Source: a virus
DNA length: 64,000 nt
Strand: one strand, 5' to 3'
Virus record (IMG/VR): IMGVR_UViG_3300020438_000007
Span: 62,001 to 126,000 of that record
Part shown: piece by piece, positions 41,556 through 55,666 of the stretch
Numbering within the stretch: position 1 is the stretch's first letter
Layout of the letters: the number at the start of each line of letters is the position of its first letter
Notes under the pieces: generated by a model
Told to the model about the DNA's origin: nothing
The model's input: the letters and a program-made list of their open reading frames with translations, nothing else
Databases searched by the model: none
Position numbers and translations under genes: made by a program

Positions 41556-42374
41556 TTATCCAATCATGTCTAGGGGTGGCATTGCATATTCTTGCATTAA
41601 CTTCTCATCGAGTTTCTCTAACTCCATGACCGCATCGTCATATAACTGTCTACCATTTAGTTCTAATCCGCCAGGCAATTTAACACCAGTAAACTTAATG
41701 AGATTCTGACCCCATTGTCGTTTTATCAAAGATGTGGTATACTGTTTAAGCCAGACATCATTATATACATTTGATTCGCTTTCGGGATCAACAACTCGAA
41801 AACAATCTATAATCATAAAATGATTCTCAGTTAGTTCATTTACATTGATATCCATGTATAATCTACTATTCTTCTTGTTAAATCTTACCTGAACATCAGG
41901 ATTAAGCATGTAATCAAGAGTTTCCAAGTATGATTTTGTCATGGAATAATTTAATAAATCGACCGCTCCGTAGTAGTATAAATCATTAAGGAAGATTTGA
42001 TATTTAATATTGAACATACCCGCCGAAATGGTGGATGAGTCCATTTTAAATACCTTATTGACTGCAATAACAGTGTCTGGCAGTGGAAGGTAGTTTGCAG
42101 ATTCAGTATAGTCGATAGAAGAAATGCCACCAGCTGTGCTAGATGCAGTTGTAGTAGAAGAAATGCCCAGCATGGTTTGTTTCTCTTCTTTAGTAATCTT
42201 ATGCTTTAAGAATACTCTATCAATACCTTCTCCATGTCTTTCATGAAACAACTGGATGGCATCGTCGATTAGATCATCTATCTGATCATCGTCAACATTG
42301 ATCTCAAGAACAGGTTTTCCTAGTTTCCTAAGAGCATATTCTTTCAATCCATCTTTACTGGTGGGTTTTGCCAT
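41556..42374 (-). CDS. gp13: Neck protein gp13
   Basis: Head-completion protein that with gp14 seals the packaged head, 272 residues (T4 309). Recognisable segments: GLKEYALRKLGKPVLEINVD, QIDDLIDDAIQLFHERHGEG, and a C-terminal part WGQNLIKFTGVKLPGGLELN with a MPPLDMIG end. It runs directly into gene 14. A CTAAATA element lies 27 nt upstream, shared with the intergenic region of the divergent plus-strand cassette. Confidence 0.94.
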   Translation of the reverse strand: MAKPTSKDGLKEYALRKLGKPVLEINVDDDQIDDLIDDAIQLFHERHGEGIDRVFLKHKITKEEKQTMLGISSTTTASSTAGGISSIDYTESANYLPLPDTVIAVNKVFKMDSSTISAGMFNIKYQIFLNDLYYYGAVDLLNYSMTKSYLETLDYMLNPDVQVRFNKKNSRLYMDINVNELTENHFMIIDCFRVVDPESESNVYNDVWLKQYTTSLIKRQWGQNLIKFTGVKLPGGLELNGRQLYDDAVMELEKLDEKLMQEYAMPPLDMIG

Positions 42375-42400
42375 TCCCTCTATTCATAAGTTCTCCGAAG

Positions 42401-42407
42401 TATTTAG
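42401..42407 (-). promoter_or_regulatory. Putative late promoter CTAAATA before gene 13
   Basis: Minus-strand CTAAATA between the divergent genes at 42374 and 42412. No matching promoter for the plus-strand gene is obvious in this 37-nt gap. Confidence 0.45.
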
Positions 42408-42411
42408 TTAT

Positions 42412-43110
42412 ATGAAAAAGTATTTTATTGATGAAGAAGAAACATTTGCAATTAGTGACGAGTTAGGCGCAAGAGTAGAACTCATGGGATGGCAAGAAAT
42501 TCCCATAGTTTACGTTGATAATTTCTACAAGAATCCAGACAAGGTAAGGAATCTAGCACTCAGATGTCCAGGCACAAATAACCCTAGAATATGTGGAGGA
42601 GTGCCTGGAGTTAGGGTAGATATGAATATGAATTTAGATCATATGCACGATGTATTCAAACAAATTGCAAAAAATGTGTATGGACTGACAATAAAAGAAG
42701 ATCCTCAATTTGATCAAGCATGTTTAAATATTCCCTTTTCTGTCAACGTAACTCAATCAAAAGATAGAGTCAAAATACCTCATGTAGACTACCCACCAGA
42801 AACTAAAGGTAGAGGATGGGCTGGGTTAATATATCTAAACAAAGGTAAAGAATGTAAGGGTGGTACTGGGTTTTATACATATAAAGGGCAACAAGTTAAT
42901 CCATTCCAAGATGGAATTTGGACAGAAGATTTTGTTGATGATACTATAGGTCCTTGGGACTTAATACATCTAGCAGAAATGAAGTACAATAGAATGATAT
43001 TGTACCCTGATAATATTCTCCATGGCGCATATGATAAGCCTGGTTTCTTTGAAGGAGAGGACTATAGGTTGGCCCAAGTATTCTTTATACCACTACATTT
43101 TTTCTCATGA
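42412..43110 (+). CDS. DUF6445-type putative oxygenase
   Basis: A 232-residue protein starting MKKYFIDEEETFAISDELGA; the frame extends upstream but the ATG at 42412 is the first outside gene 13. Pattern: PIVYVDNFYKNPDKVRNLAL, GGVPGVR, KIPHVDYPP, GWAGLIYLNKGKECKGGTGF, and MKYNRMILYPDNILHGAYD with RLAQVFFIP. The His-x-Asp, later His and Arg are arranged as in 2OG-Fe(II) oxygenases, and the overall match is to DUF6445. A paralogue lies at 51621-52280, at the other end of the sugar cassette. It overlaps the hldD-like gene by ATGA. Confidence 0.78.
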   Translation: MKKYFIDEEETFAISDELGARVELMGWQEIPIVYVDNFYKNPDKVRNLALRCPGTNNPRICGGVPGVRVDMNMNLDHMHDVFKQIAKNVYGLTIKEDPQFDQACLNIPFSVNVTQSKDRVKIPHVDYPPETKGRGWAGLIYLNKGKECKGGTGFYTYKGQQVNPFQDGIWTEDFVDDTIGPWDLIHLAEMKYNRMILYPDNILHGAYDKPGFFEGEDYRLAQVFFIPLHFFS

Positions 43111-43940
43111 TTATTCTTACAGGATACAAAGGTTTTATAGGTCAAGCATTTGAAAAGAGAATAGATCCAGAAAATCTTTATAGAGTTGAAAAAGATGGTG
43201 CATTTGATTTCATAGATCAATATGATAAGTGGGATGAAGTAGAGTTTATTCTACATCAGGGAGCGCTCTCAAGCACTACTGAGACTGATGTAAATAAAAT
43301 TCACAAATACAATGTAGAGTTTTCAATCAAACTATTTGAGAAAGCAATAGAACACTCTATCCCAGTCAAATATGCTTCAAGTGCATCGGTCTATGGTAAG
43401 ATACATGCTGACTTTGGATACCTAAAAGGAACAATCAATCCATTAAATTTCTACGCACTGAGCAAAGCGACTGTAGATTATTGGGTTACAGATCACATGG
43501 ATGAGTTTAAATTGGTACAAGGATTTAGATACTTCAACGTATATGGAGAAGGTGAAGATCATAAAGGATCTCAAGCAAGTCCTATCAGTAAGTTTACCAA
43601 ACAAGCAAAAGAGAATGATGTCATCAAAATCTTTGAAGACTCAGAATATGCCTTTAGAGATTTTGTATGTGTAGATGATATAGTAGATGTTGTTCTAGAT
43701 AACACAGCAGGGAGTGGCATCTATGATGTTGGAACTGGTAATCCAGTCTCTTTCCAAGAGGTTGCGGAATTGGTTGCTAAGAAAGAAGGGGCAGATATTG
43801 AAGTAATCCCTTTCCCCAAACATCTAGAAGGTAAGTATCAAGAATACACATGTGCAGATACCTCTTGGTATGATCACGATTATAAATCAGTATCCGAATA
43901 TCTTAAATTACCAGCAACAACCACTCTGCCATCACATTGA
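43107..43940 (+). CDS. hldD: HldD-like ADP-glyceromanno-heptose 6-epimerase
   Basis: Short-chain NAD(P)-dependent epimerase, 277 residues. GYKGFIG at the N-terminus binds the cofactor. FILHQGALSSTTETDVNK, PVKYASSASVYG, the catalytic YALSK (YxxxK), QGFRYFNVYGEGEDHKGSQA and the closing VIPFPKHLEGKYQEYTCAD all match HldD specifically rather than generic UDP-sugar epimerases. The enzyme would convert ADP-D- to ADP-L-glycero-D-manno-heptose. It is on the plus strand, convergent with the rest of the heptose genes, and its last 61 nt overlap the oppositely oriented oxygenase gene. Confidence 0.85.
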   Translation: MIILTGYKGFIGQAFEKRIDPENLYRVEKDGAFDFIDQYDKWDEVEFILHQGALSSTTETDVNKIHKYNVEFSIKLFEKAIEHSIPVKYASSASVYGKIHADFGYLKGTINPLNFYALSKATVDYWVTDHMDEFKLVQGFRYFNVYGEGEDHKGSQASPISKFTKQAKENDVIKIFEDSEYAFRDFVCVDDIVDVVLDNTAGSGIYDVGTGNPVSFQEVAELVAKKEGADIEVIPFPKHLEGKYQEYTCADTSWYDHDYKSVSEYLKLPATTTLPSH

Positions 43941-44338
43941 TTTTTTGGTACAGAATGTGACTCATCTTGGAAAATGACACACATTCCTTCATGTGGTTGA
44001 ATACTATGTCCGTCAAAGTTTAAAGGAGAACTGCCTGGCGGAGTAGAAACATAGTAAACAAATGAGTAATCATTTTTACCATGTCTATGTTCATAAGCAA
44101 AATCACCGTAATTATATACAGCACCCCATAATTGATATTTTATTTTATCTGAATCTAATTCTAATTTTTCTACAACCCAATCTTTTAACTTAATAAAAGG
44201 TTTAGGATATGTATGGTATCCTGTATGTTTCTCTACTGCAAGATTACTAAACTCGTATGTGTCATGAGGCAAAAAATCTATCCATGACCTCAGTTCTTTG
44301 TTCAAAGATAAATCAGGATAATATACAATGTCAATCAT
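43880..44338 (-). CDS. 2OG-Fe(II) oxygenase-like protein (152 aa)
   Basis: Short member of the phage oxygenase family: YEHRHGKNDYSFVYYVSTPP supplies the metal-binding region, SSPLNFDGH follows, and MCVIFQDESHSVPKNQCDGR with VVVAGN gives the distal His and the 2OG-binding Arg. It resembles 6785-7390 most. Its start overlaps the upstream hydroxylase gene by 8 nt. Its 3' end overlaps the plus-strand hldD-like gene by 61 nt. Substrate unknown; a sugar or amino-acid side chain is suggested by context. Confidence 0.75.
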   Translation of the reverse strand: MIDIVYYPDLSLNKELRSWIDFLPHDTYEFSNLAVEKHTGYHTYPKPFIKLKDWVVEKLELDSDKIKYQLWGAVYNYGDFAYEHRHGKNDYSFVYYVSTPPGSSPLNFDGHSIQPHEGMCVIFQDESHSVPKNQCDGRVVVAGNLRYSDTDL

Positions 44339-44933
44339 GATACATGGGTATATCGTAGTTGTAGTTTATAAAGGCAGTTAGTATATACTTGTCATGTGAT
44401 ATATTTACGTTAGATCCGTGTGGAAACATCCAGTTGCATGGGAATAATAATATTTTACCCATTTCACATTTACATCCAATATTCCAATCAGGGAAGAATG
44501 TTTCTCCTCCCTCATCCACATCATTCAAATATATGATACAAGCAAATAATCTGGATATAGTTCCACCCTGTGCTTGATCTACATGTGTTTTAAATATACC
44601 CTCCCCCTTTGGATATACTCTAATTGTATAATCCAATATTGCAAGATCTGATGATGGTAATACTGGTAATCGTAATCTATAATTCAAATATGCTTTCTGA
44701 ATTATATTAGTCATTAAGTTTGCATACTTATGTCCAGCCTCAAACATAAACTGAGTGCAGTTCTTATGTTCTTTGTTTACTAACTTACCTTTATATTCTC
44801 CGTCTTTAAAATGTTCTACTTTACCATCATCATGTAATTCTTTATGATCCCAGAAATACTTTATTAACTCATCACACTGTTCCTGTGACAACACATCTCT
44901 TTCGACATATATCATGTCGGTGATCTTATCCAT
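44331..44933 (-). CDS. Prolyl-4-hydroxylase-like 2OG-Fe(II) oxygenase
   Basis: A 200-residue protein with the complete P4H-type site: THVDQAQGG (His-x-Asp pair), LFACIIYLNDVDEGGETFFP, then LLFPCNWMFPHGSNV with the distal His and DKYILTAFINY with the Lys that binds 2-oxoglutarate. The N-terminal VERDVLSQEQCDELIKYF is the family's helix. Substrate could be a virion protein or the cassette's sugar product. Overlaps both neighbours by 8 nt. Confidence 0.85.
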   Translation of the reverse strand: MDKITDMIYVERDVLSQEQCDELIKYFWDHKELHDDGKVEHFKDGEYKGKLVNKEHKNCTQFMFEAGHKYANLMTNIIQKAYLNYRLRLPVLPSSDLAILDYTIRVYPKGEGIFKTHVDQAQGGTISRLFACIIYLNDVDEGGETFFPDWNIGCKCEMGKILLFPCNWMFPHGSNVNISHDKYILTAFINYNYDIPMYHD

Positions 44934-45333
44934 CTATTAAATCGCCAGGCATAATCCTATGTGAATCTGAATCCATATGTTCTGTACTAAACTCAAACAG
45001 TTCAGTATCTTCCAGTGCAAACATACGATGCTTCAGGCCGATGGGAACATGAAACTTGTCCCCTCTTCTTAATATTGTTATCTCTGCTTTTTCTATATCG
45101 TCATCCCATCCATGAAAGAGTTTGATCTTTCCACTCTGAACAAAAAATACTTCGTCTTTTAATTTATGGAAGTGCCATGAACACTGTTTATCCTTTGCAA
45201 TAAACAATAGTTTACCACAATACTTCTCGCAGTTTGCAATCCATTTTTCATATCCCCATCCCTTCGGCACATATTTAACAGGTTCTGCCGCACGAGCATT
45301 ACGAGGTCTTCTACTTGGTCCAAAAGAAGTCAT
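44926..45333 (-). CDS. Cupin-fold sugar-metabolism protein
   Basis: A 135-residue single cupin. GWGYEKWIANCEKYCGKLLF, CSWHFHKLKDEVFFVQSGKI and PIGLKHRMFALEDTELFEFS carry the two cupin motifs with metal-binding His residues and Glu. Proteins of this kind accompany sugar nucleotide genes and resemble type II mannose-6-phosphate isomerase cupins. It could isomerise or epimerise a sugar phosphate, possibly filling the missing sedoheptulose-7-phosphate isomerase step, but that is speculation. It overlaps the HAD gene by 23 nt. Confidence 0.75.
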   Translation of the reverse strand: MTSFGPSRRPRNARAAEPVKYVPKGWGYEKWIANCEKYCGKLLFIAKDKQCSWHFHKLKDEVFFVQSGKIKLFHGWDDDIEKAEITILRRGDKFHVPIGLKHRMFALEDTELFEFSTEHMDSDSHRIMPGDLIDG

Positions 45334-45646
45334 CAGAGTTTACACCTTTGTCGTCAATAAAGAAATCAGCATGTGGTTTACCTAAGATTAAAGAATGATA
45401 TTTACATCCCCAATCACTAAGTTGTTTTTCCGTAAGATCAAATAACAGAACAGATGCCTTTGTACTTGCATCTGGATCATCACCGAATCGACCCATACCT
45501 CTAGCGGTAAAGTAGGTGATGTTATGACCTTCATCATATAACTTATTTATGATAGCAATCCGATCCTTCCACGGTTCTGCGGTGTGGTAATCCCTTCCTA
45601 CAGTTGGACTACAAATAGTGCCATCAATATCTACACAGTATCTCAT
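45311..45646 (-). CDS. HAD-family phosphatase-like protein (111 aa)
   Basis: Starts MRYCVDIDGTICSPTVGRDY with the nucleophile motif DIDGT. PWKDRIAIINKLYDEGHNIT, FTARGMGR and the final DFFIDDKGVNSDDFF (acidic motif IV) complete a compact HAD fold. The enzyme is of the short capsule-biosynthesis type that lies beside nucleotidyltransferases in sugar clusters. It could act on heptose-1,7-bisphosphate, but it is much shorter than GmhB and lacks its zinc loop, so that role is uncertain. Confidence 0.8.
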   Translation of the reverse strand: MRYCVDIDGTICSPTVGRDYHTAEPWKDRIAIINKLYDEGHNITYFTARGMGRFGDDPDASTKASVLLFDLTEKQLSDWGCKYHSLILGKPHADFFIDDKGVNSDDFFWTK

Positions 45647-45888
45647 ATTATTTCATCTCCTTCCACTTCTTCCATTTCTAATTCATGAACTTGATCATGA
45701 AATACTTCATGTTCTCCGATACGATAGAGATGTTTCATTTCGCCATCTTTATCTTCTCCCTCTCCCAAGTATTCAATATCATCACAACGATTTTCACGCA
45801 ACCACGCTTGCAGTCTGTGGTGCATTAGATCCGCCTTGCCTATCGACATTTTTTCCATTTCCTTCTCCGTATAGTGAGATAATATCAT
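45643..45888 (-). CDS. Hypothetical acidic protein (up to 81 aa)
   Basis: A small acidic protein ending HDQVHELEMEEVEGDEII. The stop overlaps the HAD gene as ATGA, which supports translation. The longest frame overlaps the kinase gene by 95 nt. Internal ATGs at 45849 (MSIGKADLMHHRLQAW) or 45825 would reduce that overlap, and I cannot decide between them. No recognised domain. Confidence 0.6.
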   Translation of the reverse strand: MILSHYTEKEMEKMSIGKADLMHHRLQAWLRENRCDDIEYLGEGEDKDGEMKHLYRIGEHEVFHDQVHELEMEEVEGDEII

Positions 45889-46627
45889 TCCCAGTTAGAT
45901 AGTAAGCGCCAGGATGTGTGACTGATATTGCAGCAGCTCTATTTGCTAAATCAATAGACTTCCGTATATCCTTTGTTCTTAAAAATTCATAGACTAGAGC
46001 TGCCATAAAGGTATCTCCAGCACCACATACATCAAAAACTTTGACTACCTGTGGGAGAAATTTTAAACCAGCCCATAATGCACCATCATTTCCAAGAGTG
46101 ACAATAAGATGAGTGTCATTAGGTAAATGGTCTTTGTCAAGGTCATTATATTCTTTCTTGTTTATTTTCCAGAATACATTATCTTTATGAAAAAGTCTAC
46201 GCTTCTTAGTGTCTACGAACACTGGTCTGTTAAAATTATGACATAGATTCCATAAATCATCTTCATTAAGGTATCCTTTGTCATAATCTGAAATAACAAT
46301 TGCATCAGGATCCATGTGCAACATTGCCATTTTCAATTCAGCATTTGCGATTCTACCCACCTTTGGAGTTTCATCTAAACGCAAGAACTGATAACCACTG
46401 GTAGTATCTATGAATCTTGTTTTAGTTATCTGTTCCCTCTGCGAAAGTAGAACAGTATTAACACCAAATGCCTTGAGATTCAATTCAGTGTTTGCAGCCA
46501 TACCTGGCCTCTCTTCTATTCTAGTTTGATCTAAAACAGGGACAGGTTGTTCTGGACTCAACCTAGTAGTTTTGCCAAAGACATACTTGTCTGTACACTT
46601 ATCACCTATAACAATTACATTAGCCAC
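45794..46627 (-). CDS. HldA/RfaE1-like heptose-7-phosphate kinase (PfkB family)
   Basis: A 277-residue ribokinase-fold sugar kinase. RLSPEQPVPVLDQTRIEERP and GMAANTELNLKAFG match the N-terminal kinase domain of HldE. SDYDKGYL, VDTKKRRLFH and the PfkB signature DVCGAGDTFMAAL with the catalytic Asp follow. It would phosphorylate D-glycero-D-manno-heptose 7-phosphate at C1. In many bacteria it is fused to the nucleotidyltransferase; here the two are separate adjacent genes overlapping by 8 nt. The C-terminal tail after PGAYYLTGND is unusually polar. Confidence 0.83.
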   Translation of the reverse strand: MANVIVIGDKCTDKYVFGKTTRLSPEQPVPVLDQTRIEERPGMAANTELNLKAFGVNTVLLSQREQITKTRFIDTTSGYQFLRLDETPKVGRIANAELKMAMLHMDPDAIVISDYDKGYLNEDDLWNLCHNFNRPVFVDTKKRRLFHKDNVFWKINKKEYNDLDKDHLPNDTHLIVTLGNDGALWAGLKFLPQVVKVFDVCGAGDTFMAALVYEFLRTKDIRKSIDLANRAAAISVTHPGAYYLTGNDIISLYGEGNGKNVDRQGGSNAPQTASVVA

Positions 46628-47015
46628 GAATCTTCTTTATGGTATCGGTTGTTGAATAATTTAGACGAGGTAAGAACCTTACTTCTTTGGCAAATTTTCT
46701 GCCAACTACATCTCCACCTTTCCAGTCATCTCCTAACAATAGTATATCAGGAGAGTATAATTTTATCAACCCCTCTAATTCTTTCCTATCGTTAAAGTAA
46801 AAAACTTCATCGATATATTTTATCGCTTGTAACATCGAAACTCTGTCACAAAGGTTATTGATGGGCTTAGTTTCACCCTTATCTTGACGTATCTTCTCAT
46901 CGGTATCTGTTGCTACTATTAGTTTATCTCCTAGAGATTTTCCAACTTTAAATAATTCTATATGGCCTGGGTGTAGAATATCGAATGTTCCATTACACCA
47001 TACTATTCTATTCAT
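46620..47015 (-). CDS. HldC/RfaE2-like heptose-1-phosphate nucleotidyltransferase
   Basis: A 131-residue nucleotidyltransferase. NGTFDILHPGHIELFKVGKS has the HxGH signature, LIVATDTDEKIRQDKGETKP, then RVSMLQAIKYIDEVFYFND, SPDILLLGDDWKGGDVVG and the closing STTDTIKKIRG. The last motif (STT near the end) is typical of HldE C-terminal domains. With the kinase gene downstream it would make ADP-heptose, the substrate of the HldD-like epimerase. Glycerol-3-phosphate cytidylyltransferase is the alternative. Confidence 0.82.
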   Translation of the reverse strand: MNRIVWCNGTFDILHPGHIELFKVGKSLGDKLIVATDTDEKIRQDKGETKPINNLCDRVSMLQAIKYIDEVFYFNDRKELEGLIKLYSPDILLLGDDWKGGDVVGRKFAKEVRFLPRLNYSTTDTIKKIRG

Positions 47016-48499
47016 AATGTATCTATGGTCTCACTAAGATAAAGTGTTTGAATAACAGAGTCTGCTTGATTTTTAGGCAGAGTGTTCTCAATATAATTTG
47101 TTAATCTAGGTATGACAGATTGATCTGTTTTCCAATACTCTTTAGGATTGATATCATTTGTCATTAACTGTAGTAACCATACTTGCCAGTTAGTACCATC
47201 AAAGAATGAACCCAACTTTCCTGTTTGAGGAGTTTTTACATTGGGATCTTGAATATATTCCTCTATTATTTTTTGCATTGGTGATTTCTGATATTTAGAT
47301 CTAACATAATCCCAAAACTTGCCTTCCCTTCTACAGTAGGAATAGTGCATATTTACATAATCCACTGCACTCTCATAACTACACTTCATTTTAGCATCAT
47401 AGAGAGGTGATTCTACTCTACTATTAAAGTAACCACCATAAAGACTTTCATCCAAATATTCAACACCTCTAATCATCAGTGCAAGTCCTGTACTTTCTAA
47501 TGGTTCAATAAATCCAGCAGAAAGTCCAATAGGAACTACATTACCCTCCCAGAAGTTTTTGACATATTGAGGTTTCCAATCAAGCAATCTCATTTCATCT
47601 GGTTTGATTCTACCGTTCCAATGATCCGAGAAAGCTTGTCTTACTTCATCTGGATCATTGATATCTCGATTGAAACAATATCCTGTACCTATTCTAGATC
47701 TTGTAGGAATCTTCCATATCCAACCATGTTCCTGTGCAGGGCAAGCAGTATATGGATGTTGTTCTACTCTGTAATCTTCATACTTTACTCTACCAGCAAG
47801 AGCAGCATTTATAAACAATCTATCACCTAGATCAGTATTATCTTTACCAATTAGAAGTTGTTTCCAACCAGTACAATCTACAAATAAATCTCCAGTAATT
47901 ATTGATCCATCATCTAATACCAATTCTTTGATATTGGATTTAGTTATATCGTCTGCTTGTCCATCTCTAATAACATTTACTACATCAGATTGAATATATT
48001 TACAATAAGGTATAGTGTGTTTCATTAAAAACTGCACTAGCTTTCCACAGTCAATCTGAAAGGCGTATGAATCATGAGTATAATCTGTTTCTATTCTATT
48101 TGACCTAGAAGAGACATACATTGGAGAGATATTTTTTATATCATACTTATCTTGAAATGATTGCCATAGGTCATATAAAGGTACTTTAGAATCTCCTACA
48201 CTTGTAAAAGAAAAAGGATGCCAAATTTCTTCATCTTCATGACCCCAGCCAGGAAATAATATACCAGACTTAAATGTTGCATCTACTTCTTTCAACCATT
48301 CTTTAGGTTCATATCCCATTTGTCGCATGACATTTGGGAAACTAAGAAGGGTTGCTTCTCCTACACCAATTCTTTCTGGTTCAGACTTATCGATAATTAC
48401 TACTTCAAAATCTTTTGACCATCTACGAGCAAACCAAGATGCTGTAATCCATCCAGCAGTTCCTCCCCCAACAATAACTAATCTTTTAATTCTTTTCAT
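47012..48499 (-). CDS. Flavin-dependent tryptophan-halogenase-family protein
   Basis: A 495-residue FADH2-dependent halogenase-like protein. GGGTAG at 11-16 binds FAD. The Lys of ATFKSGILFPGW (Lys77, matching PrnA Lys79) is the residue that forms the chloramine. GWIWKIP is the family signature that blocks monooxygenase chemistry, and PIGLSAGFIEPLES carries the conserved Glu. All key residues are present, so it should be active. Substrate unknown; tryptophan, a protein side chain or a glycan-linked aromatic are possible. ATGA overlap with the nucleotidyltransferase gene ties it to the sugar genes. Confidence 0.88.
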   Translation of the reverse strand: MKRIKRLVIVGGGTAGWITASWFARRWSKDFEVVIIDKSEPERIGVGEATLLSFPNVMRQMGYEPKEWLKEVDATFKSGILFPGWGHEDEEIWHPFSFTSVGDSKVPLYDLWQSFQDKYDIKNISPMYVSSRSNRIETDYTHDSYAFQIDCGKLVQFLMKHTIPYCKYIQSDVVNVIRDGQADDITKSNIKELVLDDGSIITGDLFVDCTGWKQLLIGKDNTDLGDRLFINAALAGRVKYEDYRVEQHPYTACPAQEHGWIWKIPTRSRIGTGYCFNRDINDPDEVRQAFSDHWNGRIKPDEMRLLDWKPQYVKNFWEGNVVPIGLSAGFIEPLESTGLALMIRGVEYLDESLYGGYFNSRVESPLYDAKMKCSYESAVDYVNMHYSYCRREGKFWDYVRSKYQKSPMQKIIEEYIQDPNVKTPQTGKLGSFFDGTNWQVWLLQLMTNDINPKEYWKTDQSVIPRLTNYIENTLPKNQADSVIQTLYLSETIDTL

Positions 48500-48541
48500 G
48501 GTCTTCTTGATATGGATATTCGTATTCTTTTATCTCTCTCA

Positions 48542-50344
48542 TCAGTTCTTTACTTCGATCATAAGACCATGTTCAGGCAGATAGAGGTATTCTATCAAAC
48601 TGTTTGCAAGAGTCCTCAGAGCGTCATCTAGGGTCTCTACAAGAGGTTCTCCGCCTAGGTTGAAGGATGTATTGAAGATAATAGGACATCCTGTCTTCTC
48701 GTAGAAGGTATTGATTACATTATAGTAATTTGGATTCACTTCTTTAGTAACAGTCTGTATCCTACATGTATCATCAACATGAATAATTGCTGGAATCTTT
48801 TCTTTGATTCCTTCTTGACATTTAACTGCATACATCATAAATGGTGTATCATCCATACCACGAAGATCAAACCATTCATGCACATGTTCTTTCAATATTG
48901 ATCCAGCAAAAGGCCTGAAATATTCACGACGTTTGATGGCATTGACATGATCTTTTCCTTTAGGATCTCTAGGATCGTACATGATTGATCTGTTACCCAA
49001 TGCACGAGGGCCAGCTTCCGACTTACCTTGGAACATTGCAACAATATTTTTCTTCGTAATCAAATCAACTACGTCTTCATCTGTTGCCTCAAAGATCCTA
49101 GTTGCATCATAATAATTTGCAAGGTCTGTAATATACTCGGTATCATATTCATGTACAGGTCCATAGTATAGATCTGTCATGGGTGGATGAACTTTCGTAT
49201 TCTTACTTACTTTCTGGTAGTGCCAGTACGCAGCACCTATCGCTGTTCCAGCATCATTACTTACTGGTTCTACAAATAGATTAATACCTTCATCTTTTAG
49301 TTGTTCAAGATACCAATAGTTTGCAACACAGTTTAATCCATATCCACCAGAGAGAACAACATTCTTTTCTCCACTCATCTTAACTGCCTTACGAATCAAA
49401 TCCAGAACCATCTGTTCTGATTCTATTTGAATAGCATAAGCCATATCTCTACGGTTTTGTAATTTAGTAATATCCTTTACCGATTGCGTATCCATAGGTT
49501 CTCTTAGTTCTACGAATCTACCTTTGTTTACTATAGCACCATTAGGATAGGTAGGTACAATAAGATCTCGATTAGTGGTAGACCAATCACTCATCCCATC
49601 ATGGTCAGTGTAGATATCTGGTATCTTTAAATTCTGTTGACCGTAAGGGAAGAGTCCCATAGTTTTTCCAGCTTCAATAGGAGACCAACCACAATATTGT
49701 GTTACTGCCTCATAAGCTTTTACAATACCAGCAGTGTCATCTAAAATTAATTCATGAGTTCCCTCCTCATCTTCTCTACTAGATGGGAAATTAAATAATC
49801 TTACAGCACCATAAGGACCTCTACCTCCCTGATGTTTGTATAGAGTCTTGAACTTATCTGGATATTCACATTTGATAATCGTTTCTAGTTCCCATGTCAT
49901 CTCCTGTTCACCATCAATCTCCATAGGGATGAATGTTCCAGCACCATCTACAATGACAGATACTGCACTCTCAAATCCTGATCTAAAGAAAGCACAAGAT
50001 GAATGAAGTTTATGATGAATATGACTGTAATCTACAACTTGAGGATGTTTATAGATGTCTGCTTGACGATCAATAAGACCTAGTTTTCTTGCAAGAGAAA
50101 CGTAGATAGGTTCTCCTGTAAAATCATTAGATGCAGCCTGATCTAGAGGTTGTGTATGTGCAACTACAAGATAATCAAGTGTATCGGTGTAATCCAATAT
50201 CTTGATCATGGATGCCAAAGGACCTCCATCATATTTCTTTCTTGATAGTCTCTCCTCTTCAATGGAGAAAACTAGTTGTCCATCTTTCAGTAGGCATACA
50301 CCAGAGTTGTGACCTCTAGCGATTGCAGCAATCCATTGTGTCAT
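48542..50344 (-). CDS. NodU/CmcH-family carbamoyltransferase
   Basis: A 600-residue O-carbamoyltransferase, which transfers carbamoyl phosphate to a hydroxyl via an adenylate. The N-terminal ASKHA-fold domain begins MTQWIAAIARGHNSGVCLLK with IEEERLSRKK; VDGAGTF and VLSGGYGLNCVANYW follow. The C-terminal YrdC-like domain has SEAGPRALGNRSIM and FNTSFNLGGEPLV. Family members carbamoylate sugars and antibiotics. Here the likely acceptor is a sugar in the glycan assembled by neighbouring genes; that is inference. Gaps to neighbours are short, so it is in the same operon. Confidence 0.9.
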   Translation of the reverse strand: MTQWIAAIARGHNSGVCLLKDGQLVFSIEEERLSRKKYDGGPLASMIKILDYTDTLDYLVVAHTQPLDQAASNDFTGEPIYVSLARKLGLIDRQADIYKHPQVVDYSHIHHKLHSSCAFFRSGFESAVSVIVDGAGTFIPMEIDGEQEMTWELETIIKCEYPDKFKTLYKHQGGRGPYGAVRLFNFPSSREDEEGTHELILDDTAGIVKAYEAVTQYCGWSPIEAGKTMGLFPYGQQNLKIPDIYTDHDGMSDWSTTNRDLIVPTYPNGAIVNKGRFVELREPMDTQSVKDITKLQNRRDMAYAIQIESEQMVLDLIRKAVKMSGEKNVVLSGGYGLNCVANYWYLEQLKDEGINLFVEPVSNDAGTAIGAAYWHYQKVSKNTKVHPPMTDLYYGPVHEYDTEYITDLANYYDATRIFEATDEDVVDLITKKNIVAMFQGKSEAGPRALGNRSIMYDPRDPKGKDHVNAIKRREYFRPFAGSILKEHVHEWFDLRGMDDTPFMMYAVKCQEGIKEKIPAIIHVDDTCRIQTVTKEVNPNYYNVINTFYEKTGCPIIFNTSFNLGGEPLVETLDDALRTLANSLIEYLYLPEHGLMIEVKN

Positions 50345-50348
50345 AATC

Positions 50349-51602
50349 TCAATCTTTCTTTTCTATAGTAATTGCATTTTCTTTATCAGATTTTAACAAA
50401 TTCTTGATTTCAGATTGGAAACCTTTGTTATTCTTTGGCTTCTTTGGTTTTGGAAGTTCCATAGTAAAGGTAGGTTTTGGAGCACCACTCATCGTTGGTA
50501 CACTGTCTCCTTTTCCTGATGGCAACCAATTTGATGTTCCTTGCATTGGTTGTGGTTGTTGCATGGGAGGTGCAATACCTTGTTGTGGTTGTTGAGGTTG
50601 GTTTGGTGGACAAGATTGTCCTTGCTGTTGTTGTGGAGGAACAAAAGTACCTGTGTATGCTTTCGATTTACCCAATCTCTTCCTACAAGATGCAACAATT
50701 TCATCAATATGTTTCTTACTTAGTTCCATCGATTCATCATTGAAACGATCTATTGTTTCGTCCATTGCAATTCTGATAGGAGCATATTCTCTACGTCCAT
50801 TTCCAACATCAATAATATCGAAGTCTTTGTGGCCTGGATAACTAATGTTTTCTGGATATGTGGAACCAATCACAACGGTTGCAGTCTTATCAAATGATCT
50901 TGCAATATGTTGACCCATACTGTCACATCCTAAGAAGTGATCAGCAATCTCAATCACAGCAGCCCAAACTCTCATATCACTAATTTGTGGTCTAGCAATA
51001 GGATATTTACCTTCATTCTCCTCAACAGCAAAGTGATGTTCACTCATTACAATTACTGCGTAATCTTTCTTTAGACTATTGATAATATCTACAGCTCCTG
51101 TAAGAGGCATACTTCTGGAAGTTGGATCTGCAATAAACTCTCCCATCTGTTGAATAGATCTGCCAAATGGTTGAATTACAATTACCTTGTCTTTTTTAGT
51201 AACAGATTTAATTTCTTCAACAATATTATAGGCAGTAATGACCTCTGTTTTATTGAGATTCAATGTGGGTTTAGGAAGTTTTCTAGGTTCTTTTAACCCA
51301 TTAATTGCCATATCATATGCTTGTGCTAAATTGCACTGTTGATTATAATAGTGCCACACTCTATATGGTTCTGGACTTTCGCAGTCCCTTTGTTTAATAT
51401 GTTCTTGGAATACTCTTTTATGCCAATGGTCGTAGACCTTATCATCTAATGTCGGATGTCCTTTAAAGAAGTCAGTTCCGCCCTCACAAATGATAACAAA
51501 ATCATCATGGGTTTCTGCATATTTTTCAAATGCTGGTATTGAACTTATTACTCTCCCTGCCCCACCATTGATGAAGAATGCTTTTGATCTCATAGTTCTC
51601 AT
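50349..51602 (-). CDS. GT9/heptosyltransferase-like protein with Pro/Gln-rich tail
   Basis: A 417-residue protein. Residues 1 to about 310 look like a GT-B glycosyltransferase of family 9: KAFFINGGAGRVISSIPAFE at the N-terminus, KVIVIQPFGRSIQQ at the start of the second Rossmann domain and DHFLGCDSMGQHIARSFDKT, the usual donor-binding loop. ADP-heptose would be a natural donor given the neighbours. The C-terminal 100 residues are low-complexity (PPQQQQGQSCPPNQPQQPQQ and more), ending in a basic helix. That tail is unusual for a glycosyltransferase and might anchor it to another protein. Confidence 0.72.
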   Translation of the reverse strand: MRTMRSKAFFINGGAGRVISSIPAFEKYAETHDDFVIICEGGTDFFKGHPTLDDKVYDHWHKRVFQEHIKQRDCESPEPYRVWHYYNQQCNLAQAYDMAINGLKEPRKLPKPTLNLNKTEVITAYNIVEEIKSVTKKDKVIVIQPFGRSIQQMGEFIADPTSRSMPLTGAVDIINSLKKDYAVIVMSEHHFAVEENEGKYPIARPQISDMRVWAAVIEIADHFLGCDSMGQHIARSFDKTATVVIGSTYPENISYPGHKDFDIIDVGNGRREYAPIRIAMDETIDRFNDESMELSKKHIDEIVASCRKRLGKSKAYTGTFVPPQQQQGQSCPPNQPQQPQQGIAPPMQQPQPMQGTSNWLPSGKGDSVPTMSGAPKPTFTMELPKPKKPKNNKGFQSEIKNLLKSDKENAITIEKKD

Positions 51603-51620
51603 AATTCCTATAGTATATAG

Positions 51621-52280
51621 TCACATAAAAAATACCTGTGCCAGACGAGGATGTTCCTTAAACATCTTTCGATTTATGTCTGCTCCGTGGGTACATTCAG
51701 CTTCATACATTATCATTCTATTATATTTCATTGGACATGTAAACTGTATATCTTTTCGTATATTGTAATCACCATAGGCATGATCTGTCAGATATTTGTA
51801 AAAATCTGTTCCGCCTTCGCACTCCTCATCTTTGTTCAAATAAACTAGAGCGGCCCAACTAGAATTATCGTCTTTGTGATGAGTGTAACAATAGACAGTC
51901 TTAGTAAATCTTTCATTTATATCTTTGTTGGTAGTATGGTTGACCCAGAACTTTTGATTATCCCATCTATAATCAAACATTCCTTCACTAAATTGAATAT
52001 TAGTCCATTCCGAATGTTGGCAAAGTTCTTTGAAAACTGGTTTCAAAATCTCAATCATATCTGGTCTATCTTCAACAACTCTCGTTCCTATAAGACCGCC
52101 ACAATGTTCTTTGTCACCTGTTCTATCGCATGATAGAGCGTAATCCCTGACTTCATCAGGGTTCTTGTAGAAGTCATCTACTACAAATACTTTTCTCCAC
52201 TGGTAACCAGCGTCACTAAATCTATCGTAGTCATAACATTTTTTTATAAGAGAAATCTGAACAGGATTTATTTCAAACAT
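51621..52280 (-). CDS. DUF6445-type putative oxygenase, second copy
   Basis: A 219-residue paralogue of 42412-43110: FVVDDFYKNPDEVRDYALSC, GGLIGTR, TVYCYTHHKDD, SSWAALVYLNKDEECEGGTD and MKYNRMIMYEAECTHGADIN with RLAQVFFM. The first metal-ligand area reads YTHHKDD rather than HVDYPP, so details differ. The two copies bracket the sugar-modification cassette on opposite strands. A terminator of the upstream transcription unit lies just before it. Confidence 0.75.
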   Translation of the reverse strand: MFEINPVQISLIKKCYDYDRFSDAGYQWRKVFVVDDFYKNPDEVRDYALSCDRTGDKEHCGGLIGTRVVEDRPDMIEILKPVFKELCQHSEWTNIQFSEGMFDYRWDNQKFWVNHTTNKDINERFTKTVYCYTHHKDDNSSWAALVYLNKDEECEGGTDFYKYLTDHAYGDYNIRKDIQFTCPMKYNRMIMYEAECTHGADINRKMFKEHPRLAQVFFM

Positions 52281-52284
52281 GTAA

Positions 52285-52314
52285 TAAAAAAGATCCCCTT
52301 ATTAGGAGGATCTT
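52285..52314 (-). terminator. Intrinsic terminator after the 261-aa structural gene
   Basis: Minus-strand AAGATCC and GGATCTT (plus 52308-52314 and 52290-52296) form the stem, with inner CCT/AGG pairing, followed by a T run. It separates the fibre genes from the sugar cassette. Confidence 0.82.
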
Positions 52315-52342: not shown

Positions 52343-53128
52343 TTAGATTGAATTAGGAGGTTGCCATGCTGTTGCTCCATCTGCATCGGATTCTGGGTCA
52401 GCAGGTGGATTTGCAAATCCAGGCTCAAATGGGAACATCAAGTCAGCAAAGTTTGGATGAACTCCAGCTGCAATCATCTTATTAGGAAGGTCCCTTAGTG
52501 CTTGGCGGTATGCTTTCCACTGGTCTTTAAGTGCATCAGGCATATCTTCTGCAAGTTGACCATCACTATTAGAAAGAACATTGTCTCTGTGACCTCTAAC
52601 ATGTTCCCATGTCTTGTCCTCATCAACACCGTTTAACTTCTGTCTAGGTGTGAAGTTGCCAATGGTAATATCGTTGGGCCCAGCAGAGCCAGGGTTTGCA
52701 ACTCTGATACTATCATAGTCAAAAAAGTCATCAGCGAATATAGTTGAAGAAAATGTAAACTGAGGATACACAGATCCATCTACCACTGGAGAGCCAGGAT
52801 GGTTCGTGTCTACACCAGCACCTCTGTCTTCTTCTTTCTCGTTTACAACAGGTCCTCTTAACTGACAGATAAGTGTATGTAAATCACTTGATGCACAGTC
52901 AACCTCGTACCATTGTACAACGTCAGCTGGTTTTGGACGACCATCTGCGATATCATCCTCTGTTAGAGGACCATATACTTCTCTTCCTTCTGCATTAATT
53001 TGCAGAAAAATCTTGTCTGGACCATCATAAGTTTGGTCTCTTTGGTTTCCATCAGATTTTGAGTGATCTGTAAGGAAAGCGTTCGGAAGATCTAACTTCC
53101 AGTTATGTGAAATAATTTTTGTTGCCAT
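52343..53128 (-). CDS. Tail-fibre-associated structural or assembly protein (261 aa)
   Basis: The C-terminal third contains LKDQWKAYRQALRDLPNKMI and a Pro-rich end with AWQPP, the pattern of phage tail-fibre assembly proteins that chaperone adhesins. The N-terminal part (HNWKLDLPNAFLTDHSKSDG, LICQLRGPVV) is not recognised. A late promoter lies 33 nt upstream and the gene has its own terminator, so it is a monocistronic late unit beside the cysteine-rich adhesin-like genes. Confidence 0.65.
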   Translation of the reverse strand: MATKIISHNWKLDLPNAFLTDHSKSDGNQRDQTYDGPDKIFLQINAEGREVYGPLTEDDIADGRPKPADVVQWYEVDCASSDLHTLICQLRGPVVNEKEEDRGAGVDTNHPGSPVVDGSVYPQFTFSSTIFADDFFDYDSIRVANPGSAGPNDITIGNFTPRQKLNGVDEDKTWEHVRGHRDNVLSNSDGQLAEDMPDALKDQWKAYRQALRDLPNKMIAAGVHPNFADLMFPFEPGFANPPADPESDADGATAWQPPNSI

Positions 53129-53160: not shown

Positions 53161-53168
53161 TATTTATA
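53161..53168 (-). promoter_or_regulatory. Late promoter TATAAATA adjoining a terminator
   Basis: Exact minus-strand TATAAATA, 33 nt before the ATG of 52343-53128 and sharing bases with the T-run of the terminator at 53168-53192. Confidence 0.8.
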
Positions 53169-53192
53169 AAAAAAGAGGGTCATAGACCCTCT
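53168..53192 (-). terminator. Intrinsic terminator after the cysteine-rich gene cluster
   Basis: Minus-strand AGAGGGTC and GACCCTCT (plus 53185-53192 and 53174-53181) make a perfect 8-bp stem with a 3-nt loop, followed by T run (plus 53168-53173). It ends the transcript of the three cysteine-rich genes. Confidence 0.9.
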
Positions 53193-53272: not shown

Positions 53273-54064
53273 TTAGACGTAGGTGATTTTAACGAGTCCT
53301 CCTCCACCTTGACCGCCCTGTCCGCAACAACTACTTCCACAGTAGTTACTGTTTGCACCTTGTCCGCCGTGTCCATAGGGAACTGTCCAACAACCACATC
53401 TCATCCAACACTGTCTTTGTCCATATGAAACACCAAGAGTTCCGATGAATGGAGCACCTGTTGGTCTACCTTCGTTATAGTAACAGTGACAGTTGAATCC
53501 GTCAGGTCTGTATGAGTTACCACCGTGGTTGCCCATTCCGAAGTCTCCTCCGTGAGCGCCAGGTTGCATACAGCAAGTATGGAATTCAGAATAACAGTTT
53601 GCAGACCAGTCACCAGTTGCACAACCTCTAACACCACCTAAGGCACAGAAGTTAGATAGGTTATATCCATTTACATAGGAGTTACATCCGCAACATCCTG
53701 TACACTCTCTAGAACAACATCTATAAACACCAGCAGCACAGACACTGTATTGGCAACCAGACTTAGTACTAATAGTTTTAGTATTATAGTACCCTCCTCC
53801 AGCACCATGCCAGTTTTGACATCTGTTACATGAACATGCACCGTGTCCGTTACCTCCAGATCCCCATATCTCAAATGTAGCTCGTGTTACACCCGTTGGA
53901 ACTGTCCAAAGGCAACAACAGCCAGGTGTACAGTAACATGGATGTCCATAGACCCATTTTACACACCAGTTTGAGAAAGAACCCGCTTGAACCTTTGATG
54001 CTGGAATACTTCCATCCTCAAATGTCGAGGCATTAATTTGTTTATAACTTGAGTAAGTAGCCAT
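53273..54064 (-). CDS. Cysteine- and glycine-rich virion/adhesin-like protein, copy 1
   Basis: A 263-residue protein with 30 cysteines (over 11 percent). Residues 1-35 resemble a fibre-attachment segment (YSSYKQINASTFEDGSIPAS). CYCTPGCCCLWTVPTGVTRA and FEIWGSGGNGHG begin a Gly_rich_2-like beta domain. Clusters GACSCNRC, CCSRECTGCCGC and CWMRCGC follow, and the end GQGGQGGGGLVKITYV is the typical C-terminal glycine-rich strand. Possible roles are a receptor-binding tip stabilised by disulfides or metals. It is the most distal of three tandem paralogues and is followed by a terminator. No signal peptide. Confidence 0.82.
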   Translation of the reverse strand: MATYSSYKQINASTFEDGSIPASKVQAGSFSNWCVKWVYGHPCYCTPGCCCLWTVPTGVTRATFEIWGSGGNGHGACSCNRCQNWHGAGGGYYNTKTISTKSGCQYSVCAAGVYRCCSRECTGCCGCNSYVNGYNLSNFCALGGVRGCATGDWSANCYSEFHTCCMQPGAHGGDFGMGNHGGNSYRPDGFNCHCYYNEGRPTGAPFIGTLGVSYGQRQCWMRCGCWTVPYGHGGQGANSNYCGSSCCGQGGQGGGGLVKITYV

Positions 54065-54073
54065 TTCTTCCCC

Positions 54074-54868
54074 TTAGAAGTATGTAATTTTGACGAGACC
54101 GCCACCGCCAGTACCGCCTTGTCCGCAGCACCCACCACAATATGTAGTCATAGCGCTCTGTCCGCCGTGACCGTAAGGTACGATCCAGCAACCACAACGA
54201 ATCCAACATTCTCTAATAGATTGAGTAACTTGTGTACCAATCAACGGTGCAGAAGTAGGTCTATGACCATAGTGGTAACAGTGACACCAACCTCTATAAG
54301 TATCATGTCTTGATGAAGACCAAGTACTGGTCTGGTTGCCCATTCCGAAGTCTCCGTTGTTTGAAGTAGGACCTAAACAACAGCAATTTTGTGCGTTACA
54401 AGCAGTTGACCAACTTGGGTTAGCGTTTCCACGGTTTCCACCTTTGGCACAGAAGTTAGATAAGTTGTATCCATTTACATAAGATGAACAACCTGTACAT
54501 CCATAACACTCTCTAGAGAGACATGGATAAACACCAGCCGCACAAATACTGTAAGAACAACCACCATTGGTTGTAATCATTTTGGAGTTGTAGTATCCTC
54601 CAGAAGCACCATGATAGTGCTGACATCTGTTACATGAACATGCACCAGTACCATTTCCTCCAGCACCCCACATCTGAATCCACATGTTTCCAACCCCAGT
54701 AGGGGCTGACCAGTTACAGCAACAGCCTGGTGAACAACGGCAGTTTGTACCGAATACCCATTTTACGCCGTAACTTTCGTTAGGAGATCCACTGAAACTT
54801 CCAGCGTCAAGGCTATTGTCCTCTAAGGAATCTCCACTGATTTTTTTGTATGATGAATAACTTGCCAT
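54074..54868 (-). CDS. Cysteine- and glycine-rich virion/adhesin-like protein, copy 2
   Basis: A 264-residue paralogue with 27 cysteines. It has the same landmarks (CRCSPGCCCNWSAPTGV, MWGAGGNGTGACSCNRCQ, CLSRECYGCTGC, CWIRCGCWIVPYGHGGQ, GGGGLVKITYF). The region around residues 160-215 differs most between copies, and here reads NAQNCCCLGPTSNNGDFGMG followed by Ser/His-rich sequence. That pattern of conserved frame and variable window suggests a diversifying surface. Nine nt separate it from copy 1. Confidence 0.82.
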   Translation of the reverse strand: MASYSSYKKISGDSLEDNSLDAGSFSGSPNESYGVKWVFGTNCRCSPGCCCNWSAPTGVGNMWIQMWGAGGNGTGACSCNRCQHYHGASGGYYNSKMITTNGGCSYSICAAGVYPCLSRECYGCTGCSSYVNGYNLSNFCAKGGNRGNANPSWSTACNAQNCCCLGPTSNNGDFGMGNQTSTWSSSRHDTYRGWCHCYHYGHRPTSAPLIGTQVTQSIRECWIRCGCWIVPYGHGGQSAMTTYCGGCCGQGGTGGGGLVKITYF

Positions 54869-54880
54869 TTTTGTTTAATC

Positions 54881-55666
54881 CTAGACGTAGGTAATTCGTA
54901 CAACACCAGAGCCGCCTTGGCCGCCCTGACCACAACAACTACTTCCGCAGTATGTAGTCTGAGCACCTTGACCACCTGTCGCATAAGGAGCAGTCCAACA
55001 ACCACATCTCATCCAACATTGTTCCAGCTGCACCTCGGTTCCAGCTGATAGGAACGGAGCTCCTGATCCTTCTTCACTTGTAACCGCACCAGTACAGTGA
55101 CAGTTCCAGTGACCTGACCAACCTTTTTGGTGAGGAGCCATTGCGAAGTCTCCACCCCATGTTCCAGGCGATGCACAGCACCAGTGTCTAGATGTACATC
55201 TAATTGACCAGTCGGGGTTTGCACAACCTCTTGCACCACCAATGGCACAGAAGCCACTTAAGTTGTAACCGTTAACGTATGAAGAACATCCATCACATCC
55301 GTTACACTCTCTTGAACAGCACCTGTAAACACCACCAGCACATACAGAATATGAGCAACCAGCAGCGGTACTGATTGTTTTAGTATTGTATGCACCTCCA
55401 GCAGCACCTTGATAGTGATGACATCTGTTACATGAACATGCACCATGTCCGTTACCACCAGCACCCCAGATTTCTAGGGTTAGTTTACCTACACCTGCTG
55501 GGACAGTCCAGTTACAGCAACAGCCAGGTGTGCAATAACATGGATGTCCATAGAACATCTTGACACAATAGTCAGGGGTGCCACCCGCCGCCAGCTTCGA
55601 GATTGGGATGGTTCCCGAAGCGATTTGGTCGGATCTTACTTTTTTATATGATCTATAGTTGGCCAT
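54881..55666 (-). CDS. Cysteine- and glycine-rich virion/adhesin-like protein, copy 3
   Basis: A 261-residue paralogue with 29 cysteines, first of the three in transcription order. Landmarks: CYCTPGCCCNWTVPAGV, LEIWGAGGNGHGACSCNRC, CCSRECNGCDGC, CWMRCGCWTAPYATGGQ, and a GQGGQGGSGVVRITYV end. The N-terminus MANYRSYKKVRSDQIASGTI is close to that of copy 1. It follows the 1479-aa fibre gene, so these proteins are probably fibre tips or fibre-associated adhesins. Confidence 0.82.
   Translation of the reverse strand: MANYRSYKKVRSDQIASGTIPISKLAAGGTPDYCVKMFYGHPCYCTPGCCCNWTVPAGVGKLTLEIWGAGGNGHGACSCNRCHHYQGAAGGAYNTKTISTAAGCSYSVCAGGVYRCCSRECNGCDGCSSYVNGYNLSGFCAIGGARGCANPDWSIRCTSRHWCCASPGTWGGDFAMAPHQKGWSGHWNCHCTGAVTSEEGSGAPFLSAGTEVQLEQCWMRCGCWTAPYATGGQGAQTTYCGSSCCGQGGQGGSGVVRITYV

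Follow-up and report, generated by a model that had tools for sequence, protein, structure and literature searches.

What would a cyanophage decorate with a flavin-dependent halogenase and a carbamoyltransferase that are encoded beside genes for heptose synthesis? The locus that raises this question lies in the window analysed here, a stretch of 64,000 nucleotides taken from a virus record of 230.7 kb (IMGVR_UViG_3300020438_000007, bases 62001-126000) that belongs to a T4-like cyanophage near S-SSM7 (Kyanoviridae, Lipsvirus). An earlier note on this DNA had read the genes as a system that builds a sugar, transfers it and decorates it, in a virion glycan or adhesin. We give a probability of about one half to the explanation that the genes serve the late, cytoplasmic tailoring of tail-fibre or adhesin proteins by carbamoyl-heptose together with the halogenation of aromatic groups.

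The halogenase gene is complete, and its product matched the Pfam family Trp_halogenase (PF04820) over almost the full profile (E=1.1e-82; 278.8 bits against a cut-off of 21). It carries an FAD-binding GxGxxG at G11-G16 and WxWxIP at W260-P265, as well as K77 and E335, which we take to be the catalytic Lys and Glu, just as we assume the roles of the two motifs; the Lys77 and GWIWKIP of the earlier note are both present, the latter at residues 259-265. In an alignment of 124 rows, consisting of the window protein and 123 non-redundant phage proteins out of 229 found (the S-PM2 halogenase has no row), the Lys was kept in 123/124, the Glu in 121/124, and W260 and P265 in 124/124. An AlphaFold2 model of the protein (pLDDT 91) was closest to Xcc4156 (Z 43.1), followed by tryptophan halogenases at about 39-42 (PrnA 41), MibH at 38.2, VirX1 at 38.1 and QhpG at 25.1. 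Because characterised PrnA-type enzymes halogenate electron-rich aromatics, halogenation of a sugar is chemically unlikely. On these grounds we ruled out the heptose itself, and by analogy with these enzymes the target is likely an aromatic residue or group.

The carbamoyltransferase, encoded upstream of the halogenase as had been stated, is likewise complete, with its N-terminal and C-terminal domains both present (PF02543 and PF16861 in Pfam). Its matches in the PDB were decarbamoylnovobiocin carbamoyltransferase, GdmN and TobZ, and H110, H114 and D133 were conserved in an alignment of 83, the two His residues forming an HxxxH that we presume to be the metal motif. A role as pyrBI in pyrimidine metabolism was ruled out, because the domains are of the NodU/TobZ type. 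This role is nonetheless named in the available parts of published accounts of phage ms29 (PMC10436341) and S-SZBM1 (PMC9146016). The S-MS29 record carries a relative of the window carbamoyltransferase that is 40.6% identical over 98% of the query; given the NodU/TobZ-type family, relatives such as this one are unlikely to be pyrBI, and the label should be corrected.

Loci related to that of the window were found by patterns of close homologs. There were 249 loci, or 127 groups without near-copies, 52 of which were complete from the GT9 gene, which encodes the 417-aa protein of predicted GT9 fold described below, to the gene for the heptose epimerase. Between these two genes a carbamoyltransferase was present in 50/52 complete groups and a halogenase in 37/52 (one copy in 29, two copies in 8; absent in 15), and in contig L098 three halogenase genes lie in tandem. 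In a subset selected by the epimerase (the best 80 of 183 epimerase relatives; 19 groups, down from 20 since the hand-added locus L008 was left out), the corresponding numbers were 18 and 15. The halogenase slot also accepts second carbamoyltransferases and DUF6445/oxygenase genes. Across divergent contigs, the order was fibre, Cys-rich, chaperone, GT9, carbamoyltransferase, optional genes, heptose genes, and because this arrangement recurs in tens of such contigs it is not due to chance.

Twenty-six phage-collection records hold the GT9 gene. Three of them (Aeromonas, Vibrio) are weak matches, and in all of the 23 cyanophage or marine-virus records the carbamoyltransferase follows within 300 nt (23/23). 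P-SSM2, S-CAM1 and Sf-FS3 have the core cluster without a halogenase, that of P-SSM2 lying ~60 kb away. Given a halogenase in 37/52 groups versus a carbamoyltransferase in 50/52, we conclude from gene content that carbamoylation is the core of the cluster and halogenation an optional, exchangeable module. Co-occurrence with the heptose genes, which the earlier note had proposed as a check, thus held for the carbamoyltransferase and only in part for the halogenase, which is missing from 15 of the 52 and is also found away from sugar genes. A 345-kb viral contig has the GT9-carbamoyltransferase pair without adjacent heptose genes, and an HldE-II-like gene lies elsewhere in that record; the same search found no HldE-II-like gene in five other, smaller records with the pair and no adjacent heptose genes.

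On its upstream side the cluster adjoins fibre genes. Among the 67 groups with the GT9 gene and the adenylyltransferase gene in order, 60 had at least 3 kb upstream, and a fibre-side gene was present there in 57/60, a chaperone gene in 54/60. Before the chaperone gene, the T4-type late promoter TATAAATA was found in 59/59 loci, one per group (2.6 expected). Over the whole window ATAAATA occurs 13 times against 16.4 expected, and is informative by position only. The fibre neighbourhood and the conserved late promoter support the virion or adhesin setting that had been suggested. Within 110 nt before the tailoring genes the late motif is nearly absent (carbamoyltransferase 0/83, kinase 0/83, HAD phosphatase 0/81, cupin 0/36, upstream DUF6445 gene 0/47, halogenase 1/78, adenylyltransferase 1/86), and these genes are therefore probably read through from upstream. 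Conserved before the cluster are three tandem Cys-rich proteins of ~262 aa each, with 27-30 Cys, 8-9 Trp and 14-18 Tyr. None of the cluster proteins has a long hydrophobic segment, the highest 19-residue Kyte-Doolittle mean being 1.46.

The heptose genes were assigned by their best NCBIfam models, which were HldE domain II for the adenylyltransferase, HldE domain I for the kinase and HldD (TIGR02197) for the epimerase. By these models, at scores below the equivalog cut-offs, the kinase, adenylyltransferase and epimerase for ADP-heptose are all present. The top PDB matches were heptose-7-phosphate kinase (4e84) for the kinase and ADP-heptose epimerase (1eq2) for the epimerase, those of the adenylyltransferase being other cytidylyltransferases. 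No SIS_2 match that would indicate a GmhA isomerase was found across the 230.7-kb record, which is possibly incomplete. The cupin of the cluster is a candidate isomerase, and either it or a host enzyme may replace GmhA; cupin-fold sugar isomerases occur in cyanophage sugar clusters, according to the available text of one study (PMC7824862). A transaldolase gene in the same genome could supply sedoheptulose-7-phosphate.

The gene that precedes the carbamoyltransferase, with a gap of 4 nt, would provide the transfer step. Its 417-aa product matched no Pfam or NCBIfam model, those for GT9 included, and phmmer against the PDB gave nothing credible. Its AlphaFold2 model, built from 46 sequences (pLDDT 83, pTM 0.78) and with its low-confidence part lying chiefly past about residue 330, in the C-terminal tail, resembled the GT9 protein 3tov (Z 22.7), WaaF (20.6), TibC (20.0) and WaaC (18.5). 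These GT9 entries also came up in Foldseek, with E values between 1e-9 and 6e-8. Z was also 18.6-18.9 for plant NDH-complex chains, and at most 12.0 for UDP-sugar enzymes. D227, S228, G230 and H232 are invariant in the alignment of the protein and, we presume, resemble the GT9 donor-site motif. GT9 is the heptosyltransferase family, so that the ADP-heptose donor genes and the GT9-fold transferase agree, and the modelled fold makes the protein a putative heptosyltransferase using ADP-heptose. With it, the sequence of build, transfer and decorate has all its parts; the coupling to heptose and the transferase stood, whereas the sugar as target of halogenation fell, since aromatics are needed. Relatives of the GT9 gene were also seen, in one contig scan, in nine contigs (L265-L273) titled bacterial or archaeal metagenome-assembled genomes of various taxa, which are probably misbinned phage contigs.

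Read along the minus strand, the locus encodes the 1479-aa tail fibre, the three Cys-rich proteins, the chaperone-like protein, a DUF6445 protein, the 417-aa protein, the carbamoyltransferase and the halogenase, followed by the HldE-II-like adenylyltransferase, the HldE-I-like kinase, an 81-aa ORF, the HAD phosphatase, the cupin and two genes of 2-oxoglutarate (2OG)-oxygenase type (Table 1). The HldD-like epimerase gene and another DUF6445 gene are on the opposite (plus) strand, and the neck genes gp13 and gp14 (named as in S-SSM7) come next. The carbamoyltransferase and halogenase genes are 42 nt apart, and the halogenase stop overlaps the start of the adenylyltransferase gene at 47012-47015, which is the ATGA junction of the earlier note. 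Its placement of the two genes in the same operon as the heptose genes holds for the adenylyltransferase and the kinase, which belong to a co-directional run, but not for the epimerase; encoded on the plus strand, the latter is linked to the cluster, yet outside the same operon.

Table 1. Features of the halogenase-carbamoyltransferase-heptose locus, in positions of the window.
Feature	Position	Strand	Evidence
PrnA-type flavin-dependent halogenase, 495 aa	47012..48499	-	PF04820; K77, E335, WIWKIP; AlphaFold2 model
NodU/TobZ-type O-carbamoyltransferase, 600 aa	48542..50344	-	PF02543+PF16861; PDB matches; H110/H114/D133
Putative heptosyltransferase (GT9 fold, phrog_8954), 417 aa	50349..51602	-	AlphaFold2 fold comparison
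Heptose-1-phosphate adenylyltransferase (HldE domain II-like)	46620..47015	-	TIGR02199 2e-29, under equivalog cut-off
Heptose-7-phosphate kinase (HldE domain I-like, PfkB)	45794..46627	-	TIGR02198 1.9e-38, under equivalog cut-off; 4e84
Conserved 81-aa ORF	45643..45888	-	Found again in related loci
HAD phosphatase, EcbF/BcbF-like, candidate GmhB role	45311..45646	-	TIGR01689 1.6e-5, under cut-off
Cupin, candidate sugar isomerase	44926..45333	-	Cupin_1 above cut-off, Cupin_2 just below; weak PDB matches to cupins including L-ribose isomerase
2OG-Fe(II) oxygenase	44331..44933	-	PF13640
2OG-Fe(II) oxygenase-like, 152 aa	43880..44338	-	PF13759 slightly below cut-off; phrog_81
ADP-heptose 6-epimerase-like (HldD)	43107..43940	+	TIGR02197 8.4e-62; 1eq2
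DUF6445 protein	42298..43110	+	PF20043; real start probably 3' of 42298
DUF6445 protein	51621..52280	-	PF20043 1.1e-8
Tail-fibre assembly chaperone-like protein	52343..53128	-	PF16778 1.9e-10; phrog_4912
T4-type late promoter core, ATAAATA of TATAAATA	53161..53167	-	Directly after terminator hairpin 53192-53174
Three tandem Cys/Gly/Trp/Tyr-rich proteins, candidate acceptors	53273..55666	-	Composition; phrog_4205 (53273-54064 scanned)
Tail fibre protein with CBM5/12 modules, 1479 aa	55718..60157	-	phrog_9851, PF02839

The CBM5/12 carbohydrate-binding modules lie near the N-terminal part of the tail fibre protein. Two terminator-like hairpins (52290-52314 and 53174-53192) flank the chaperone gene, and a TATATATAAAAT-like stretch precedes hairpins of the 52290-52314 type in many DUF6445-type loci. 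Two PHROG labels look wrong: 'phosphoheptose isomerase' for the protein that resembles a HAD phosphatase (45311-45646), a correction that stands beside that of pyrBI, and 'cysteine dioxygenase' for the one that resembles a small sugar-type cupin (44926-45333). The position before the neck genes holds in the window and in S-SSM7; we discarded it as support, because of the 39 groups that extend 2.5 kb or more past the epimerase, only 16 have gp13/gp14 relatives after it.

From these genes we infer an order of substrates, an acceptor, a halogenation target and a location in the virion. The kinase, HAD phosphatase, adenylyltransferase and epimerase would make ADP-heptose from sedoheptulose-7-phosphate, with the cupin or a host enzyme as isomerase; the GT9-fold enzyme would move the heptose onto a fibre-side protein, and the carbamoyltransferase would O-carbamoylate it. 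The 2OG oxygenases would hydroxylate residues and may therefore create attachment sites. Where present, the halogenase would act on a Trp or Tyr side chain, most plausibly in the adjacent Cys/Trp/Tyr-rich fibre-side proteins, and not on the sugar. We favour the virion as the site because of the gene order, the late-promoter regulation and the lack of any long hydrophobic segment, as a surface glycan needs export.

Several findings weigh against this explanation. The scores of the heptose enzymes against TIGR02199, TIGR02198 and TIGR02197 are all under the curated equivalog cut-offs, and the GT9 match is at the level of the fold only, without a Pfam family match. Two of the 52 complete clusters lack a carbamoyltransferase, and three of the 60 groups (L063, L230, L246) lack a fibre-side gene upstream. 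In the window, a terminator-like hairpin (52314-52290) lies between the chaperone gene and the DUF6445 and tailoring genes, so that transcripts started at the chaperone promoter may end there instead of running on into the tailoring genes; the late motif stands directly before the GT9 gene in only 22/81 loci, the window not among them. With n=49, neither the Trp/Tyr content of the Cys-rich proteins (for Trp, rho 0.27 and p 0.06) nor, after multiple-testing correction, any single site in them was significantly related to the number of halogenase copies. Some halogenases have no fibre gene as neighbour: that of S-B64 lies among replication genes, that of HTVC008M adjoins the terminase, and those of Syn1 and S-PM2 have no fibre genes directly adjacent. 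The second halogenase of the window's own genome (367 aa; outside the window on the minus strand, ~50635-51735 of the record, L359:7636-8736) is near genes for ribonucleotide reductase (nrd) and plastoquinol terminal oxidase, and no fibre gene was among the ten proteins scanned around it. In addition, data on virion, glycan or halogen chemistry were not found in searches of the open PMC literature (subscription papers not covered).

It is possible, although we doubt it, that the heptose/carbamoyl decoration of fibres is real and the halogenase an independent module that acts on something unrelated, inserted by chance in the same late operon. The 15 clusters without a halogenase fit this idea, as do the 23 phage-collection records: a halogenase lies beside the cluster in only 3/23 (S-SSM7, S-SSM6a), and the adenylyltransferase comes directly after the carbamoyltransferase in 19/23, one record (MH319759) being arranged otherwise. 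Halogenases also occur elsewhere without sugar genes. However, the heptose-linked halogenases have their own clade and their own lid motif. In a FastTree tree, which has several long branches and leaves out S-PM2, 70/73 heptose-linked rows fell in one group of 73 rows, and the lid motif N437 + W/F/L441 + Q444 was present in 66/73 heptose-linked rows versus 3/51 others, the three belonging to the same main tree group. The C-terminal lid, which in free-tryptophan halogenases holds the residues that bind the Trp backbone, is clade-specific in the window halogenase (N437, W438, W441, Q444); the lid stretch alone gave no halogenase sequence match in the PDB. The remaining three heptose-linked halogenases (L063, L065, L229) branch apart as a lineage of their own, which is found next to heptose genes too, apparently by an independent association, and the ATGA coupling to the next gene likewise argues against chance insertion.

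We consider it unlikely that the genes alter the glycan on the surface of infected host cells by decorating lipopolysaccharide (LPS) or capsule, for example to block superinfection. Such a role has been proposed for cyanophage LPS-type clusters in the available text of two papers (PMC7824862, PMC2984593), and the LPS heptosyltransferases WaaF and WaaC are among the nearest folds to the GT9-fold protein. What argues for tailoring of fibre proteins instead is the linkage to fibre genes with the late motif, the fact that no cluster protein has a long hydrophobic segment, and the lack of an exporter or ligase in a Pfam scan that covered 15 of the 18 proteins at 42.3-60.2 kb. Moreover, the LPS of marine Synechococcus WH8102 and CC9311 is on record as free of heptose and 3-deoxy-D-manno-octulosonic acid, leaving no ordinary acceptor in host LPS; the same source, as far as available, notes heptose in Spirulina (PMC4515613).

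Less probable again is a small halogenated and carbamoylated sugar-amino-acid metabolite, an antibiotic or toxin, produced during infection. It is the published prediction for S-SSM6a, in the available text of PMC7824862; the carbamoyltransferase does resemble antibiotic-tailoring enzymes (novobiocin, GdmN, TobZ), and the fold of the halogenase is near that of free-tryptophan halogenases. Yet the same Pfam scan of 15 proteins revealed no scaffold-building enzyme, the halogenase is optional, and the cluster is linked to fibre and chaperone genes. Stuffer DNA or non-functional acquisitions, a possibility raised in the available text of PMC3037559, are very improbable in view of the catalytic Lys (123/124) and Glu (121/124) kept in phage halogenases and of the conserved gene order and overlaps.

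Halogenases outside heptose clusters were also compared for their neighbours. Only loci that reach at least 3 kb to both sides were counted, which kept 39/51 non-heptose and 41/72 heptose rows, and as controls 37 matches on 80 talC loci; the loci are not independent of each other. An oxygenase relative lay within 4 kb in 35/39 non-heptose loci versus 5/37 talC controls; for fibre or Gly-rich genes the corresponding counts were 14/39 and 0/37, some of the neighbour queries deriving from the Syn10 and window islands themselves. VirX1 of Syn10 (CPUG_00131, annotated hypothetical; L251:9517-11109) has a second halogenase directly before it; upstream of this pair, and separated from it by a single small gene, are two Gly-rich fibre proteins (PF21722), and downstream comes a series of genes of 2OG, JmjC and DUF6445 type, of which some score under family cut-offs. 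Relatives of both Gly-rich and oxygenase genes flank the halogenases of S-SZBM1, Sf-FR1, P-TIM40, P-RSM6 and S-WAM1; beside those of HTVC008M, Syn1 and P-SSM2 only oxygenase relatives were found. The script that counted neighbours placed neither class beside the halogenases of Sf-CH11, S-B64 and S-SRM01. Annotation, which was consulted for 13 records besides S-SSM7, among 60 listed of 69, differs for two of these, the S-SRM01 halogenase lying between tail fibre and adhesin-tip genes and that of Sf-CH11 among oxygenases, behind a structural gene. Tentatively, and with less confidence than in the tailoring of fibre proteins as such, we suggest that fibres may be matured with carbamoyl-heptose and halogenated aromatics, so that virions would carry bound Cl, Br or I, and that the native substrate of VirX1-type enzymes might be the phage's own adhesin.

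The cluster itself had been described in 2021 for S-SSM6a/S-SSM7, as a 'halogenated amino acid and sugar' cluster that forms a halogenated-metabolite or capsule system (PMC7824862, in its available parts). It is the same cluster, with carbamoyltransferases, halogenase, 2OG enzymes, HAD protein and cupin, and the S-SSM7 proteins are 86% (halogenase), 90% (carbamoyltransferase) and 92% (adenylyltransferase) identical to those of the window. The available account does not bring in ADP-heptose, a GT9 transferase for this cluster or linkage to tail-fibre genes or a late promoter, and the word 'heptose' appears 0 times in its main text. The expectation that such a system would be new is thus too broad for the cluster but fits the fibre-tailoring interpretation: a known cluster is read anew, as far as the available literature goes, through the assignment to ADP-heptose and GT9, the linkage to fibre genes and a late promoter, the split into core and optional genes, and the setting shared with VirX1. 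Searches of the open PMC literature, judged by titles and the first lines of abstracts, brought up no fibre-linked halogenase or heptose tailoring in phages. For cyanophage halogenases, the accessible text of two papers speculates on antibiotic protection of the host (PMC2984593) and on more active host metabolites (PMC10452541).

Among known systems, the LPS inner core of Pseudomonas, built by heptosyltransferases and WapO, also combines heptose with a carbamoyl group (PMC8005017, as far as available), and the folds of E. coli WaaC/WaaF are similar to that of the phage protein. Unlike that system, the phage genes adjoin fibre genes, and host-type LPS is on record, in the sources available, as lacking heptose. 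For the halogenase, the peptide tryptophan halogenase MibH and the peptidyl-Trp hydroxylase QhpG provide family precedents for Trp inside a peptide as substrate, so that action on Trp within a protein is not without parallel; their substrates differ in being a lanthipeptide or an enzyme-cofactor. TibC-type protein heptosyltransferases are alike in GT9 fold and in ADP-heptose logic, and act on a protein adhesin as acceptor. TibC/BAHT enzymes have an iron-binding Cys4 motif, whereas in the phage GT9-fold protein, whose acceptor is putative, the four-Cys set is not conserved, with 0 Cys among the invariant columns and one (C226) near-invariant. VirX1 (Syn10, PDB 6qgm) shares with the window halogenase the PF04820 fold, carriage by a phage, and a position shortly after Gly-rich fibre genes, with oxygenase genes as neighbours; the two are 30% identical over 422 positions and differ in clade and lid, and no sugar genes were annotated or found within the 17 kb examined around VirX1. 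The placement of halogenases among fibre, chaperone, oxygenase and heptosyltransferase-like genes offers a concrete substrate hypothesis for VirX1-type enzymes, which is open to mass spectrometry of purified virions from isolates such as S-SSM7.

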